A model generated the notes under the pieces. The model had not been told where the DNA came from. It worked only from the letters and a program-made list of their open reading frames with translations, and ran no database searches. Position numbers and translations under genes: made by a program. A stretch of 64,000 nucleotides of DNA from Lysinibacillus mangiferihumi (GTDB lineage Bacteria; Bacillota; Bacilli; Bacillales_A; Planococcaceae): assembly GCF_003049665.1 (NCBI RefSeq), contig NZ_PYWM01000004.1:62001-126000 (forward strand), in the 5' to 3' direction. This document shows, piece after piece, positions 6,325 through 10,613 of the stretch; within the stretch, counting starts at the first letter, position 1, and the number at the start of each line of letters is the position of its first letter.

Positions 6325-6572
6325 TTGATGTACGCGTCAGGGGGTCCTTCCGAAGTTTTAGTGGCGATTCATAGGCTTCAACCAAAAATGCGTGATCAAA
6401 AACACTCAGAACCCAAAGCTATTGATTATATAGTTTCACTTAGCGGTAGTGGCGGTGCATTTAAATTATATCTTTCGACGGCTCTTTGTTCATTGATGGA
6501 AAGCTAGAAGAAACATATCAAGTTGTTGATAACCAAGTACTGGATGCATTATTACATGTGGTATCTAAATAG
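6325..6572 (+). pseudogene. Frameshifted fragment of an unrecognised gene
   Basis: The first frame gives MYASGGPSEVLVAIHRLQ and DYIVSLSGSGGAFKLYL, then runs into a stop. Adding one T at the TTT near 6477 joins it to a second open frame, FDGSLFIDGKLEETYQVV then LDALLHVVSK, which ends just before a terminator. A one-base deletion in a T-run is therefore likely. No ribosome binding site precedes the fragment, so the 5' end also seems lost. The protein family is not recognised. Confidence 0.5.
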
Positions 6573-6752: not shown

Positions 6753-6784
6753 AGTTGATTTTGATTTAAGAAAAGTCCTTTATA
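6753..6784 (+). promoter_or_regulatory. Candidate autoregulated promoter of the split sigma gene
   Basis: AGTTG (6753-6757) and TTTATA (6779-6784) are 21 bases apart. This is a near match to the GGTTG-22-TTTATA element before three neighbouring transcription units, and it shares the C-rich bases just before TTTATA (GTCC). Confidence 0.5.
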
Positions 6785-6862
6785 TAAATAAAAAATCATG
6801 TAGAAAAGGATCTAATTTTCTATAGGTCCCCCATTCCATGAAGCGTAAAGGAGTTGGTTTTT

Positions 6863-7426
6863 TTGATTCAAAATCGATTACTAAAAAACTTTTTAAATGA
6901 TGCAGAAATTAAAGAGCTGTATCAAAGTTATTTAGAAAAGCCTACTACTTGCAAGAAAGAAATGATTGAAAAAATGTTTCAAATCCATGGTAGAAAGATT
7001 CAGCTGCTTAGTTATTTTTCAAAAACTTTAACTTTTGAGTCTCAAAAATTTGATAAAAAAATTCGTCATAACAATAAATGGAATCAATTGATATTAGATC
7101 AAAACATAGATGAGAGAGGGGGTAAATTCCTTGATTTAGTCGCAGATGAACAATGTTATTACGATGTTGAATTCAATACACCTGTTGAATCTAGTGAATT
7201 AGAAATGATTTTTGAAGATAAACAACTGTACGACATCGTTTCCACATTAACCGAAAAGCAAAAAAAGATTCTCTACTTACTTTTTGTGAAGAATTGGACA
7301 GAAGAGGAATTAGCTATAGAGCTTGGTGTTTCAAAACAGGCTATTAATAAGGTTAAAAATTACACATTACGCAAAATAAAAAAAGAGTATGAGTCGGCAA
7401 ACAGAAGAAATCTGAATACTAATTAA
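6863..7426 (+). CDS. SigO/YvrI-like sigma factor, region 4 subunit
   Basis: A 187-residue protein. The C-terminal part, LTEKQKKILYLLFVKNWTEE then ELAIELGVSKQAINKVKNYT, is a sigma-70 region 4 helix-turn-helix (residues about 128-175), which reads the -35 element. The N-terminal half has no clear region 2, as in SigO of B. subtilis, where the partner RsoA supplies region 2. A small region-2-like gene lies 1.5 kb away on the other strand. The start is taken as TTG 6863, nine bases after AAAGGAG; the TTG at 6854 touches that site. A palindrome at 7481-7511 may end the transcript. The distant alternative is a TcdR/UviA-type toxin sigma factor. Confidence 0.75.
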   Translation: MIQNRLLKNFLNDAEIKELYQSYLEKPTTCKKEMIEKMFQIHGRKIQLLSYFSKTLTFESQKFDKKIRHNNKWNQLILDQNIDERGGKFLDLVADEQCYYDVEFNTPVESSELEMIFEDKQLYDIVSTLTEKQKKILYLLFVKNWTEEELAIELGVSKQAINKVKNYTLRKIKKEYESANRRNLNTN

Positions 7427-7448
7427 GTTGCAGAAAATCTATCAAGAT

Positions 7449-7481
7449 GGTTGATAAATCACCCTAAACTTCCCTTTTATA
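7449..7481 (+). promoter_or_regulatory. Split-sigma promoter of the gene at 7542
   Basis: GGTTG (7449-7453), 22 bases, TTTATA (7476-7481). The same two words at the same distance stand before the gene at 9547 and, on the minus strand, before the yvrJ-like gene. Confidence 0.7.
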
Positions 7482-7511
7482 AGTGTTAGGTTGGCCAACC
7501 TTAACACTTTT
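7481..7511 (+). promoter_or_regulatory. Palindrome at the likely transcription start of the gene at 7542
   Basis: AAGTGTTAGGTTGG pairs with CCAACCTTAACACTT with a single bulged base. It begins on the last base of TTTATA and is followed by TTTATAT. It could be the terminator of the sigma gene, an operator, or a stabilising 5' hairpin on the downstream mRNA. Confidence 0.6.
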
Positions 7512-7541
7512 ATATTAAAAAATTTAGGGAGGAATTACATT

Positions 7542-7979
7542 ATGGCTATTTATAATTATCGAAGAGGATCTACAAATACTACAAACTTAACAAAAGAGCA
7601 GTTACTTCAGTTAGAGCACGCAACGTTTAGTGGAGCAGAATATTTACTTTCTATCGCTAATCATTCTACAATTCAAGATAAATTAAAAAATATTTATCCT
7701 GGTAATTTAACTAAAGTATTTGGAATCAGTTCTCTTTCAACTATTGCCACTCGCTTGTCTTTAATTTATGAAGGTATGCCGCGCTCAAGCAGAAATTCAG
7801 TAGTTACAGCAGCAAAAGATGCGGTTAAAAACTTTAGTGATATATTTAACAATGCTGATTCTAATGGCGCTAAACTTGTAACAGTGAACATTACTTATTA
7901 CGAACTTTTCAACGCAACGACTGGTGTCACTAGCTTAACTCTACCTGTTAAAGTAACTGCTACTCGTTATCACAAGTAA
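7542..7979 (+). CDS. Unrecognised 145-residue protein under split-sigma control
   Basis: Started at ATG 7542, which has GGGAGGAA ten bases upstream; a longer frame lacks a ribosome binding site. The chain begins MAIYNYRRGSTNTTNLTKEQ, is rich in Thr, Ser and Asn, and ends in a stretch of alternating beta-type residues (LVTVNITYYELFNATTGVTS, then LTLPVKVTATRYHK). There is no signal peptide, membrane segment or cysteine, and no family is recognised. The promoter, an exclusive terminator and the neighbouring sigma gene suggest it is a main product of the locus. It could be a bacteriocin-like or surface protein, but nothing in the sequence proves that. Confidence 0.7.
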   Translation: MAIYNYRRGSTNTTNLTKEQLLQLEHATFSGAEYLLSIANHSTIQDKLKNIYPGNLTKVFGISSLSTIATRLSLIYEGMPRSSRNSVVTAAKDAVKNFSDIFNNADSNGAKLVTVNITYYELFNATTGVTSLTLPVKVTATRYHK

Positions 7980-8010
7980 ATATATACACACAATAAAAAC
8001 ATGGAAAGTA

Positions 8011-8042
8011 AAAATCGCTCAGTAGTTTTCTGAGCGATTTTT
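8011..8042 (+). terminator. Terminator of the gene at 7542
   Basis: AAAATCGCTCAG and CTGAGCGATTTT pair perfectly around a 7-base loop and are followed by TT. Confidence 0.9.
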
Positions 8043-8127
8043 CCCTTATCAATTTATAGAATACTATCACTATCTTAAAAATTAAATATCCACATCCACT
8101 TTTTTTAGACTCGATCAATTCCCTATT

Positions 8128-8249
8128 TTATTCCACTTGGATTTGGCTATTTCTTTTAATTTGATAAAACCATATGGAGATAAGAACCAACAATACCGGC
8201 ACTGCCGAACTCAGACCTAAAACTATTAATTTATTTGGAAATGACTCAG
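8128..8249 (-). pseudogene. Start-less membrane-segment remnant
   Basis: Directly after the stops of the gene at 8736-8257 (TAG TAA), the same frame reads ETESFPNKLIVLGLSSAVPV, then LLVLISIWFYQIKRNSQIQV-E and a stop. It holds one good membrane helix followed by positive charges, but no start codon. It may be a fragment of another gene, or a former C-terminal extension of the gene before it. Confidence 0.4.
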
Positions 8250-8256
8250 TCTCTTA

Positions 8257-8736
8257 CTATATAGATTGTTGTATAGCACGTTGTAAAATATCGGAAAATT
8301 CGTCATTGTTGAGTATATTAAAATATCTAGTATCATTATCCAAACGTATCTCTTTACCGTCATTAAAGATATAAATATAATAATCTTCATCAGAATTTAT
8401 TTTCATCCAATAATCAGCATCACTTAACATATATATATTGTTTGATATTTGGAATTGTAAGTTTTGTAAATGGTGCAAGAGTTGTTTTTGCTGTTCTTCA
8501 TCTTCTATAAAAATCGTTTCATAATCTTCTATATTCCCTTTTATTATCCCAATTCCAAGCTTTATGTTATCCTCACTAAAATCCGCATCTTTAAGTATGT
8601 CCGTGACCGTATAAATTTTTTCAGCCTCAGCCTTAAGAGCAGCATCTCTTTTTTTATTTTCATATACATCCAATCCCATTAAAACAACACTGATTACAGC
8701 GACAGCAATGATTAAGAAAATTCTACGTTTCCGCAT
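8257..8736 (-). CDS. Membrane-anchored extracytoplasmic protein, unknown function
   Basis: A 159-residue protein started at ATG 8736, which has AGGAGG six bases upstream. It begins MRKRRIFLIIAVAVISVVLM, one positively flanked membrane anchor, followed by an outside domain with FIEDEEQQKQLLHHLQNLQF and YYIYIFNDGKEIRLDNDTRY. The layout (short anchor, then a small domain with an E-x-x-Q/E-x-x-x-L-L/I motif and a late beta hairpin) is like the protein at 10489-10043, so the two may be distant relatives of the DUF5301 type. It lies inside the sigma locus but lacks the shared promoter. A role as anti-sigma factor, the job of YvrL in B. subtilis, is only a guess. Confidence 0.65.
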   Translation of the reverse strand: MRKRRIFLIIAVAVISVVLMGLDVYENKKRDAALKAEAEKIYTVTDILKDADFSEDNIKLGIGIIKGNIEDYETIFIEDEEQQKQLLHHLQNLQFQISNNIYMLSDADYWMKINSDEDYYIYIFNDGKEIRLDNDTRYFNILNNDEFSDILQRAIQQSI

Positions 8737-8819
8737 AGAGTACCTCCTCATTTTATTTTTTAAAATTATATCAAATTTTATATATTTTCACTCTATATAG
8801 CTTAAAATTCTTGTAAATT

Positions 8820-8857
8820 CATCCTTTTTCTCTATCAATAGAAAAAAAGGATGTTTT
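8820..8857. terminator. Hairpin downstream of the yvrJ-rsoA-like pair
   Basis: CATCCTTTTT and AAAAAAGGATG pair around TCTATCAATAGA. The T-run is best on the plus strand (TTTTGATTTTTT), so it may act in both directions. Confidence 0.5.
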
Positions 8858-8894
8858 GATTTTTTATCAAAACATACCCTCTCTATCACCAATT

Positions 8895-9113
8895 CTACTT
8901 TTCTATTTGTGTATCTTTCTCTTTATCCATAAGTTCAAAAAAGGAAGGAAGTTGCTTAAATTCCTTTCTTTTTATCGTTGAAAGCACCATTAAAATCAGT
9001 TCCTGCTCCAAATCCTTTCGATTTTGCCAATCTGTTTGTCTTAACACTGATTTAATTTTTGGTGTCAACAGTTCTATCACTTCTTGTTCAAATCTGCCAT
9101 CCACCACTATCAC
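8895..9113 (-). CDS. RsoA-like sigma region 2 co-factor
   Basis: A 72-residue acidic/basic helical protein, FEQEVIELLTPKIKSVLRQT followed by NRKDLEQELILMVLSTIKR. The D-L-x-Q-E-L pattern preceded by a helix and an aromatic resembles the core of sigma-70 region 2, and the small size fits RsoA of B. subtilis, which supplies region 2 to SigO. It follows the yvrJ-like gene by 37 bases in one operon, and a SigO-like gene is nearby. The start is uncertain: GTG 9113 or one of the following GTG codons. Identification rests mainly on context and size. Confidence 0.6.
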   Translation of the reverse strand: MIVVDGRFEQEVIELLTPKIKSVLRQTDWQNRKDLEQELILMVLSTIKRKEFKQLPSFFELMDKEKDTQIEK

Positions 9114-9150
9114 CTCAGACCTTTTATAAGACTACATATCCCATCAATTT

Positions 9151-9333
9151 TTATGTTCGCCCCCCCTCCCTCCTCTTTTCTTTTTGCAATAATAACTGTA
9201 CAGCTTGGGTGTTGTTATTGACCGCTTCAGTTAATAACGCTAATGACTTATCAAATTTCCAAAAGACCAATAGAAATGCCACTATTGGAAAACCAACATT
9301 ACTAATGAAATTTATTAGTATCGAATGATCCAT
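9151..9333 (-). CDS. YvrJ family membrane peptide
   Basis: A 60-residue peptide, ILINFISNVGFPIVAFLLVF then WKFDKSLALLTEAVNNNTQA: an N-terminal membrane helix containing the family motif S-N-x-G-F-P-I-V, then an amphipathic helix and a very basic tail (KEKRREGGR). In B. subtilis yvrJ lies in the sigO-rsoA locus. Similar peptides (BhlA/UviB type) are described as holin-like in bacteriocin loci, so a part in export or release is possible. AAAGGAGG stands eight bases before the ATG, and the shared promoter element lies just upstream. Confidence 0.8.
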   Translation of the reverse strand: MDHSILINFISNVGFPIVAFLLVFWKFDKSLALLTEAVNNNTQAVQLLLQKEKRREGGRT

Positions 9334-9353
9334 ATTAAGACCTCCTTTGTATA

Positions 9354-9386
9354 TATAAAGGGGGCTTTACCTGTATTTTAGCAACC
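9354..9386 (-). promoter_or_regulatory. Split-sigma promoter of the yvrJ-rsoA-like operon
   Basis: On the minus strand GGTTG (9386-9382), 22 bases, TTTATA (9359-9354). TTTATA lies only some 20 bases from the start codon, so the leader would be very short. Confidence 0.7.
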
Positions 9387-9471
9387 TTTAATATTAATAA
9401 TTGATTGTACTTTCGACCATATAAAAAACTCTAAATAATCTCCCTTTCGGTAAAACTAAATTTCACTTATA

Positions 9472-9504
9472 GGTTGTTATTTGGGCTACAAGTTCACCTT
9501 TATA
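9472..9504 (+). promoter_or_regulatory. Split-sigma promoter of the gene at 9547
   Basis: GGTTG (9472-9476), 22 bases, TTTATA (9499-9504). The bases before TTTATA (AAGTTCACC) resemble those of the 7542 promoter (AACTTCCCT). Confidence 0.7.
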
Positions 9505-9507
9505 GAC

Positions 9508-9519
9508 TGTTAGCTAACA
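9508..9519 (+). promoter_or_regulatory. Perfect palindrome TGTTAGCTAACA near the start of transcription
   Basis: It begins four bases after TTTATA. Its half site TGTTAG is also the start of the palindrome in the same place at the 7542 promoter, so a shared repressor or a 5' hairpin is possible. Confidence 0.5.
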
Positions 9520-9546
9520 CAATAAAACTAAAAAGGAGTGTTTGAT

Positions 9547-10023
9547 ATGCCTACAGTAACGAAAGAATATATCGAAGTAAAAAAAATTAAAGGAGATCGT
9601 GACATACTTCCAATTCGACTTGCCCAAATTGCAGCAATAGATTATCTAGAAGGAAGAACAAATGCAGATCAACTCAAAACAAATATTGGAAATATCGCTT
9701 CACTTGCAGGTATTGCTTATTCGGTCTTTGGAAAAAGTAGCGCAGTAGGGGTTGCATTAGGTGTTATTAGTTTCCTGGCTTCAAGCCCATCCCAATCACA
9801 CCGAAATGGTATGATTCAAGGCCTTAAAGCAGGTAATAATGCGGTGCAACGCTTTGAGAGTGATTTAGTTAATTCATATCGCTATAGTGAAACATTCGAT
9901 GTTGAGTTAGCCTTTTTAGAAGCGAGTGACTGGGCAACACAACAGCAGCTTTTCAAAGGTGTAACAGGAGTAGGTAAAATCCACGCCTTTTACGATGAAA
10001 AAGGTAATCGAATCCCAGTATAA
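9547..10023 (+). CDS. Unrecognised 158-residue protein with a glycine-zipper-like segment
   Basis: Started at ATG 9547, nine bases after AAGGAG. The N-terminal third is charged (KEYIEVKKIKGDRDILPIRL), then comes a Gly/Ala/Ser-rich apolar stretch, NIASLAGIAYSVFGKSSAVG then VALGVISFLASSPS (residues about 48-81), and a mixed C-terminal half. The apolar part, with Gly or Ala every three or four residues, could form paired membrane helices. No signal peptide, cysteine or known domain is seen. It shares its promoter type with the gene at 7542, so both are probably made together. Effector, bacteriocin and stress roles are all open. Confidence 0.7.
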   Translation: MPTVTKEYIEVKKIKGDRDILPIRLAQIAAIDYLEGRTNADQLKTNIGNIASLAGIAYSVFGKSSAVGVALGVISFLASSPSQSHRNGMIQGLKAGNNAVQRFESDLVNSYRYSETFDVELAFLEASDWATQQQLFKGVTGVGKIHAFYDEKGNRIPV

Positions 10024-10063
10024 AATAATGAGGTAGTCGATTTTATTCGACTACCTCATTATT
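10024..10063. terminator. Two-way terminator between convergent genes
   Basis: AATAATGAGGTAGTCGA and TCGACTACCTCATTATT are perfect complements around a short loop. The right arm overlaps the 3' end of the minus-strand gene at 10043. Confidence 0.9.
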
Positions 10064-10489
10064 ACTTAAATAACTTTTAACAAACGCAAATAGCTCAGAA
10101 CTATCCTCAAGAATATATTGCTTCAACATCTTAGGCCTCTCGATAATTCCTATGATATTTCTTTTATAATCTAAGATTATTGTATAGGATACTTCTGAAT
10201 TTTTGGAATAAAAATAAATATAAGCATCCTCATTAAAAGCCGGTCTATTAGGAATTATTTTCTTTTTCATAAAAAGGCTATTTAGTATCGAGATAAATTG
10301 TTCTGTTTCCTCTTGCTCAATATAAAACGATTCTCTCATATCTGAAATCAAAAGATTATCGATGCTCGCAATATCCAATTCTGGTACAGCCTCATTAAAA
10401 GTAATTAGTGGTCTAGTATAAAACCATATTAGCCAAATCACAACTACAAACAACAAAAACCATATTTTTTTATTGCGAATATTCATCAT
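10043..10489 (-). CDS. Membrane-anchored extracytoplasmic protein (intact paralogue)
   Basis: A 148-residue protein started at ATG 10489, seven bases after AAGGA in AAGGAACGGAGG. A basic start (MMNIRNKKIW) and one membrane helix (FLLFVVVIWLIWF) lead to an outside domain with LDIASIDNLLISDMRESFYI, ETEQFISILNSLFMKKKIIP and AYIYFYSKNSEVSYTIILDY. The fold resembles small DUF5301-type domains, though this is not certain. A truncated copy of the first third lies at 4909-5097. Function unknown. Confidence 0.65.
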   Translation of the reverse strand: MMNIRNKKIWFLLFVVVIWLIWFYTRPLITFNEAVPELDIASIDNLLISDMRESFYIEQEETEQFISILNSLFMKKKIIPNRPAFNEDAYIYFYSKNSEVSYTIILDYKRNIIGIIERPKMLKQYILEDSSELFAFVKSYLSNNEVVE

Positions 10490-10613
10490 CCTCCGTTCCT
10501 TCCAAAAGCTCATTTTCTTTTTTAAATTATATCAAAACCTAGCTATTCAATAATATTGAATCTGAATCTCTTCACGGATTTCTATCTGCGATTTCCTCGA
10601 GTTTATCAGCGAT

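Follow-up and report, generated by a model that had tools for sequence, protein, structure and literature searches.

A SigO/RsoA-type promoter class and a probable bacteriocin-like effector island in Lysinibacillus mangiferihumi

In Bacillus subtilis, one sigma factor is split into two separately encoded proteins, SigO (YvrI) with region 4 and RsoA (YvrHa) with region 2, and the gene for the small peptide YvrJ lies nearby. Both parts are needed, and the pair reportedly has a membrane regulator, RsoI. To our knowledge, this is the only split sigma factor whose regulon has been studied. Its own operon is among its targets, and the literature indicates that SigO serves the oxalate decarboxylase gene oxdC (PMC8103513); the subunit roles used below are taken from B. 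subtilis work as summarised in PMC8103513 and PMC10028694. Here we describe an island in a 64-kb stretch of the Lysinibacillus mangiferihumi genome (the window, to which all island coordinates refer), in which relatives of SigO, RsoA and YvrJ stand together with two putative effector genes, A and B, and two membrane protein genes, D164 and E156. We consider it probable that this is a bacteriocin-like effector and immunity island run by a split sigma factor of the SigO/RsoA type.

The island shares with the B. subtilis system the split into region 4 and region 2 proteins, a nearby YvrJ, a self-operon among the targets and a long spacing from RGTT(G) to a -10-like element. It differs in that no oxalate decarboxylase gene was seen in the island, the targets being effectors without known family; the -10-like element is CCTTTATA here and CACTTAAC there, and this genome holds several paralogous pairs. 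Clostridial UviA/UviB and TcdR/TcdE loci, governed by group V sigma factors, also combine a dedicated sigma factor, a small holin-like peptide with a single transmembrane (TM) segment and toxin-type cargo, but the sigma factor is one chain there and two chains here, and none of ten YvrJ proteins had a Pfam holin match. Pore-forming colicin plasmids are small carriers of a hydrophobic hairpin effector, a convergent membrane partner and a lysis-type peptide, all of which have counterparts in SigO/RsoA loci; however, no sequence homology was found, control is by a sigma factor, and the partners in the window have one TM segment. Megacin A-216 is a phospholipase A2 bacteriocin of Priestia megaterium. 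It may resemble in kind the phospholipase-A2-like genes of SigO/RsoA loci elsewhere in the Bacilli, which are absent from this island.

The island lies on contig C87 of the 5.3-Mb genome G000 (G, C and L denote genomes, contigs and loci), and its features are as follows, the last two being remnants nearby.

6753-6784, plus strand: promoter of sigO, AGTTG-N21-TTTATA
6863-7426, plus strand: SigO-like sigma subunit with region 4 and without region 2
7449-7481, plus strand: promoter of effector A, GGTTG-N22-TTTATA
7482-7508, plus strand: inverted repeat at the predicted A transcript start (AGTGTTAGGTTGGCCAACCTTAACACT); L091 and L093 have a similar one ahead of A
7542-7979, plus strand: putative effector A, 145 amino acids, without known family
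8257-8751, minus strand: D164, candidate immunity protein in the membrane with a single TM segment, its gene convergent with A
8895-9113, minus strand: RsoA-like sigma subunit, 72 amino acids, GTG start
9151-9333, minus strand: YvrJ peptide, 60 amino acids, holin-like
9354-9386, minus strand: promoter of yvrJ-rsoA, GGTTG-N22-TTTATA
9472-9504, plus strand: promoter of effector B, GGTTG-N22-TTTATA; L093, L094 and L095 keep it ahead of their B genes
9508-9519, plus strand: palindrome TGTTAGCTAACA at the predicted B transcript start, with identical 12 bases in L093, L095, L100 and L287
9547-10023, plus strand: putative effector B, 158 amino acids, with a hydrophobic hairpin at about residues 50-79 (by eye)
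10043-10513, minus strand: E156, candidate immunity protein in the membrane with a single TM segment, its gene convergent with B; distant relative of D164
6397-6563, plus strand: remnant, with a broken frame, of the gene for a third membrane partner that is still whole in the relative L091 (6228-6650)
4897-5118, minus strand: truncated second copy of E156

The YvrJ and RsoA genes form one minus-strand unit. A preliminary description of this DNA had placed the promoter elements and gene starts correctly, and had listed the SigO-like protein, the 72-residue RsoA-like protein, YvrJ and two genes without family, but it omitted the genes for D164 and E156. Its recognition of the two sigma subunits is borne out by family searches. 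The SigO-like protein matches Sigma70_r4 (E=9.9e-9), with no region-2 family among its matches; its start is most likely the TTG at 6863 rather than 6854, as read from the sequence and from the ortholog in G026, which begins MIQN. The RsoA-like protein matches NF010682 (E=7.3e-13) and NF041489, sigO_reg_RsoA (E=3.2e-6), both under the curated cut-offs, and has a conserved DLEQEL core in common with the B. subtilis-type protein. The YvrJ assignment likewise holds, with a Pfam YvrJ match of E=3.5e-4 that is under the cut-off. The SigO-like protein matched the BotR model below the cut-off (E=2.4e-6) and only over residues 111-161, its region 4 part, and the region-2 part is encoded by a separate gene; a single-chain factor of the TcdR, UviA or BotR kind was therefore not found.

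GGTTG-N20-24-TTTATA has only three matches in the window, at 7449 (+), 9386 (-) and 9472 (+), all of them in the island and all with a gap of 22; the expected number is 0.30, and three were reached in none of 100 shuffles. This confirms that the equal spacing on two strands, noticed in the preliminary description, is beyond chance. AGTTG-N21-TTTATA lies upstream of sigO, as was also described there. The spacing is also long compared with the usual value of about 17, as had been said: even with TTGNNN taken as the -35 hexamer, the spacer to TTTATA is 19. The bare motif is not rare genome-wide, having 33 matches as against 56 for the pattern read backwards, so that its count alone would prove nothing, and we rejected this 11-base motif as a genome-wide predictor. 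The genome-wide search that had been suggested is thus unspecific with the short motif; the information lies in the extended form, RGTTGWTA ... CCCTTTATA. As an independent test, a position-weight matrix was made from 28 unique sites of five other genera, taken from the family survey described below; none of them is from Lysinibacillus, and the core is fixed by the search pattern. Its top four scores in the window are the four island promoters, namely those of B (31.7), A (24.5), yvrJ-rsoA (21.5) and sigO (20.3); elsewhere in the window no score exceeds 11.7.

It could be argued that these are ordinary sigma-A promoters that resemble each other by chance, with TTGATA or TTGTTA as the -35, a weak -10 about 18-19 bases on, and equal spacing by coincidence. 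The short motif is indeed common, as the genome counts show, and at least one match, before a catalase-like gene on C81, looks by reading like a sigma-A promoter. Such a coincidence does not account for a matrix from other genera that selects exactly the four island sites, nor for the clustering of sites at SigO/RsoA operons in six genera described below, and we give this explanation hardly any credence.

Across 261 genomes of the same family, which form our family survey, RGTTG-N20-CCTTTATA has 122 sites by our own count. The backward control also matches in many of the same genomes, so the evidence lies in where the sites are located. SigO and RsoA homologs were found within 3.5 kb of 26 of the 53 fetched GGTTG sites and of 4 of the 27 AGTTG sites, and at 27 of these 30 sites the nearest homolog starts 80-307 bases downstream. 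When 30 SigO loci (29 from Lysinibacillus, one from another genus) were examined automatically with a threshold score of at least 14, such a site preceded sigO or yvrJ in 15, as compared with one of 266 background upstream regions, none of which reaches 16. Individual elements are conserved as well: the AGTTG-21-TTTATA element precedes sigO in all three congeners with SigO orthologs (L091, L092, L093; 74-84% identity), and B orthologs in G026, L. cavernae (G004) and G219, from another genus, have RGTTG-22-CCCTTTATA at the same place. The yvrJ-rsoA element is kept in G020, with one -10 base changed in G026 and more changed in G027.

At the level of the class, we examined 20 genomic loci that surround RsoA matches; 10 of their 226 upstream regions score at least 14. 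These belong to three sigO genes, three S8 peptidase genes, and one gene each for a glutaredoxin, a cysteine-rich protein with a phospholipase motif, a 145-residue effector-like protein and an 86-residue protein, the last standing ahead of a phospholipase-A2-like gene; plausibly, all 10 are regulon genes. No site of at least 15 was found anywhere in 11 of the 20 loci, four of them of B. subtilis type. Three of these four have AGTTGAC-21-CACTTAAC upstream of what we take to be oxdC, an element related to the island code yet distinct from it. On sequence grounds, the island promoters match the SigO/RsoA type, in which about 21-22 bases separate RGTT(G) and a TTTATA- or CTTAAC-like element.

Within the same genome there are five full SigO-like genes (in the island and on C84, C57, C42 and C53) plus a 40-residue fragment on C97; three further matches (E 0.003-0.009) look like other sigma factors. 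RsoA-like frames occur at seven places, two of them weak. Sites scoring at least 20 stand before fitting genes on five contigs, C87, C57, C113, C56 and C42. On C113 and C56 the sites were found by motif first and the genes, a yvrJ in each case, were read afterwards; on C57 the site belongs to a sigO-rsoA pair that neighbours an integrase gene in prophage-like surroundings, and on C42 to a cysteine-rich protein with a CCxxHDxC motif, whose Pfam phospholipase match reaches only E 0.059. The preliminary description had proposed a private promoter class read by the two-part sigma factor. That the class is read by the sigma pair is supported by the locus counts and because a matrix without Lysinibacillus sites ranks the four island sites top; the idea of a code private to the island was rejected, since other SigO/RsoA pairs within and outside the genome have it in common. 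These data support a promoter class of the two-part sigma factor that extends to other Bacilli and to plasmids.

The SigO/RsoA pair on C57 (L045, 6259-7038) has its own promoter and lies between an amidase gene, which ends a prophage-like stretch, and the integrase gene; it is probably a prophage-borne split sigma factor. A second Lysinibacillus SigO clade (L101, L103, L107-L110, L112-L114) has GGTTGTTTTTATTAAGGAAGGATCCTCTTTACA-like elements before yvrJ and/or GGTTTATAATATAG...TTCACTTTATA before sigO, with the same spacing and a drifted -10. In three loci from another genus of the same family (L219, L221, L231), a regulator of 435-438 residues, XRE-type by eye, is divergent to the SigO-YvrJ-RsoA operon and might provide a peptide-sensing (Rgg-like) input.

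Applied to the island, the B. subtilis roles would have SigO read the -35 (GGTTG) and RsoA the -10 (CCTTTATA), the split sigma factor recognising RGTTGWTA-N~14-CCCTTTATA promoters. It would drive sigO and yvrJ-rsoA, giving positive feedback, and would turn on the effector genes A and B. If both separately encoded parts are needed here as in B. subtilis, the sigma factor would act as an AND gate.

We next consider what is being switched on. A and B are, we infer, most likely bacteriocin-like, membrane-directed toxins against close relatives, from which D164 and E156 would protect the producer. One pointer is the arrangement of the genes: a convergent membrane-like open reading frame (ORF) lies within 300 bases of 15 of 20 motif-driven effectors, and in 14 of them it is at most 220 amino acids long (the fifteenth has 371). 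Orthologs of A or B, each entered on its own, make up seven of these 14. The background for such a small convergent ORF is 14 of 398. The likeness to colicins is thus one of arrangement only. D164 and E156, 16% identical, were aligned as one diverged family, the profile of which finds members in 19 of 32 genomes of the genus; many of these have no promoter site in the stretch examined. Effectors in L091, L092, L100 and L248 are only 16-26% identical to B and have the same central hydrophobic hairpin between short ends. No export signal was seen by eye in A or B.

The effectors also turn over rapidly. B has matches in 10 of the 261 family genomes, full-length in four and partial in six. In G020, a 22-residue stub of B and a 21-residue stub of A stand beside intact E156 and D164, and in G029 a 24-residue stub of B stands beside an intact E156. 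D164 is intact in G027, where no A was found. G006 and G030 have kept the promoter and an intact D164-like gene (convergent in G006, divergent in G030) but have no effector ORF. G020 is 99% identical to the window in RsoA and 95% in YvrJ, as compared with only 35% in A and 51% in D164; there, a diverged pair has taken the place of A/D164.

Since a membrane regulator of SigO/RsoA is reported from B. subtilis, D164 and E156 might themselves be membrane regulators of the sigma factor, like RsoI, rather than immunity proteins. Their distribution makes this very improbable: they track the effectors and not the sigma factor, and in L. cavernae the pairs A-D164 and B-E156 occur together in a stretch of 18-20 kb in which the window SigO was found to have no relative. 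Moreover, both have a single TM segment, unlike the YvrL-like protein after oxdC in L152, which is hydrophobic through most of the part shown.

YvrJ, which comes from the same promoter class as RsoA, would release the effectors. The window YvrJ matches PHROG 4898, annotated as holin, with E=6.5e-10, and four other YvrJ proteins, including the B. subtilis-type one, match it with E-values from 9.3e-10 to 6.5e-5. UviB, a protein of similar build (71 amino acids, one N-terminal TM segment and a charged tail), had holin activity in E. coli according to PMC4597214.

These matches raise another possibility, a selfish or phage-derived lysis module. In it, the triad of sigma subunits and holin would be a phage late-gene switch, now domesticated, by which the producer is lysed, with the effectors as passengers. 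SigO, RsoA and YvrJ each match PHROG families, and the C57 pair, next to an integrase gene, is set in prophage-like DNA. Yet no endolysin gene was recognised by eye among the island ORFs, and a tblastn search of 50,697 phage records returned no full-length SigO relative, the region-4 matches covering at most 63%; we regard this origin as distinctly unlikely.

Several observations weigh against a bacteriocin-like island under sigma control. Fifteen of the 30 SigO loci had no site of at least 14 in the automatic test. Four of them (L045, L104, L107, L108) have one by reading, the extrapolated gene start lying upstream of the site, and none was found in the remaining 11, which include the genome's own C42 and C53 pairs. 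High-scoring sites also lie inside unrelated frames, on C96 (24.9, in a transposase gene) and at C56:48781 (21.7, gap 24); these look accidental. Six of the 20 motif-driven effectors have no small convergent partner, the D164-like gene is on the other side of the promoter in G030 and G005, and E156 is frame-broken in copy 2 of G020 and in G027, so that retention of the partner is not universal. The holin label of YvrJ is a database name, not an assay. Neither A nor B has detectable toxin homology: A has no Pfam, NCBIfam or PHROG family, and B has weak matches only (best E 0.046). As the homology searches gave no such assignment, we place neither protein in any bacteriocin family known so far. 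The predicted structure of A (strand, helices, two strands) has a predicted local distance difference test score (pLDDT) of 90.4 in the best model; five models were made from a two-sequence alignment, and two of them were poor. Nothing matched this fold well, leaving it without a clear relative, and the model of B is poor (pLDDT 50). Finally, the A homolog of L. cavernae (L287, 8858-9340) has a lipoprotein-like signal by eye, which would be odd for a released toxin.

Such observations could fit a real promoter class whose targets A and B are surface, matrix or stress proteins, with D164 and E156 as their membrane anchors or chaperones; besides the missing homology and the L. cavernae lipoprotein, the service of SigO to oxdC in B. 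subtilis, as reported in PMC8103513, speaks for it. We nevertheless find it unlikely, given the rapid turnover, the stubs beside intact partners and the cassette swap, as well as the phospholipase-A2-like and S8 peptidase genes of other loci and the plasmid layout described below.

The L. cavernae homolog also lacks a good promoter motif, as if an effector had become membrane-anchored, and the proposal that A is cytoplasmic-looking in all relatives was rejected in view of this lipoprotein form.

The bacteriocin-like reading of the island gains from plasmids, where SigO relatives were found in 18 of 72,556 records (E at most 1e-6). Two Lysinibacillus plasmids of 7.2 and 8.2 kb have yvrJ, sigO and rsoA among 8 and 10 annotated genes. 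The larger of the two, pACHW1.5 (8244 bp), has in addition a site of 30.0 before the gene of a 144-residue protein, a hairpin protein by hydropathy, which has TGTTAGCAGCTAACA at its predicted transcript start and is convergent with a polytopic membrane protein of 108 residues; its yvrJ site scores only 12.7. In Priestia megaterium pBM500, a site of 26.2 precedes a 230-residue protein whose match to a phosphodiester glycosidase is weak (E 6.4e-4) and under the cut-off; a broken gene under a 34.0 site in G002 is similar to it by eye. Elsewhere in the Bacilli the promoter precedes S8 peptidase genes, with phospholipase-A2-like genes in the same or similar loci. Phospholipase A2 matches were found in L159 (E=1.7e-8, over the cut-off) and L161 (E=3.6e-7, just under), both genes lying on the same strand as the promoter site and one gene or more behind it.

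It is possible, though in our judgement somewhat short of an even chance, that across the Bacilli split sigma factors of the SigO/RsoA type serve for the most part as dedicated switches for a large class of bacteriocin-like systems, which sit on chromosomes and plasmids and turn over rapidly. These would comprise hairpin effectors, toxins of the phospholipase-A2-like and other kinds, immunity proteins encoded convergently and placed in the membrane, and YvrJ as a holin-like exporter, the oxalate decarboxylase regulon of B. subtilis being an atypical member. If this is true, the split of the sigma factor would secure a dangerous export programme like a lock that needs two keys. A readable promoter code, several effector families and an 8-kb plasmid that holds sigma factor, YvrJ, effector and partner together now open to test the purpose of split sigma factors, the role of YvrJ, and whether the effector/partner pairs are a large undescribed class of bacteriocins.

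In several Bacilli, cysteine-rich proteins with phospholipase A2 motifs are tied to SigO/RsoA loci, at L161 8190-9865, L159 1916-2398, L164 10656-11405 and L046 3043-3870, some of which also hold S8 peptidase and glutaredoxin genes.

An inverted repeat of the type TGTTAG...CTAACA, just after the -10 element, tends to open effector transcripts at their predicted starts; besides the two in the window, it was seen in L091, L092, L093, L095, L100, L207, L208, L245, L287 and L322, and it was not seen at the regulator promoters compared. As RNA it folds well only with a long loop (A, L208, L245), the versions of B and L100 folding poorly, and most individual repeats are not significant against 40-base shuffles. 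The repeat is a shared sequence that may serve as an RNA leader hairpin or as an operator.

Just upstream of the effector promoter, L208 (402-2219) and L245 (1061-3189) have a reverse transcriptase gene of group-II-intron type (by eye), intact in one species and split in the other. Near effector loci of two Lysinibacillus species we also found ORFs with tandem SIHDFDCSFHDF / SIHHFRDSIHHF repeats, at L214 4885-6045 and L287 11889-12695.

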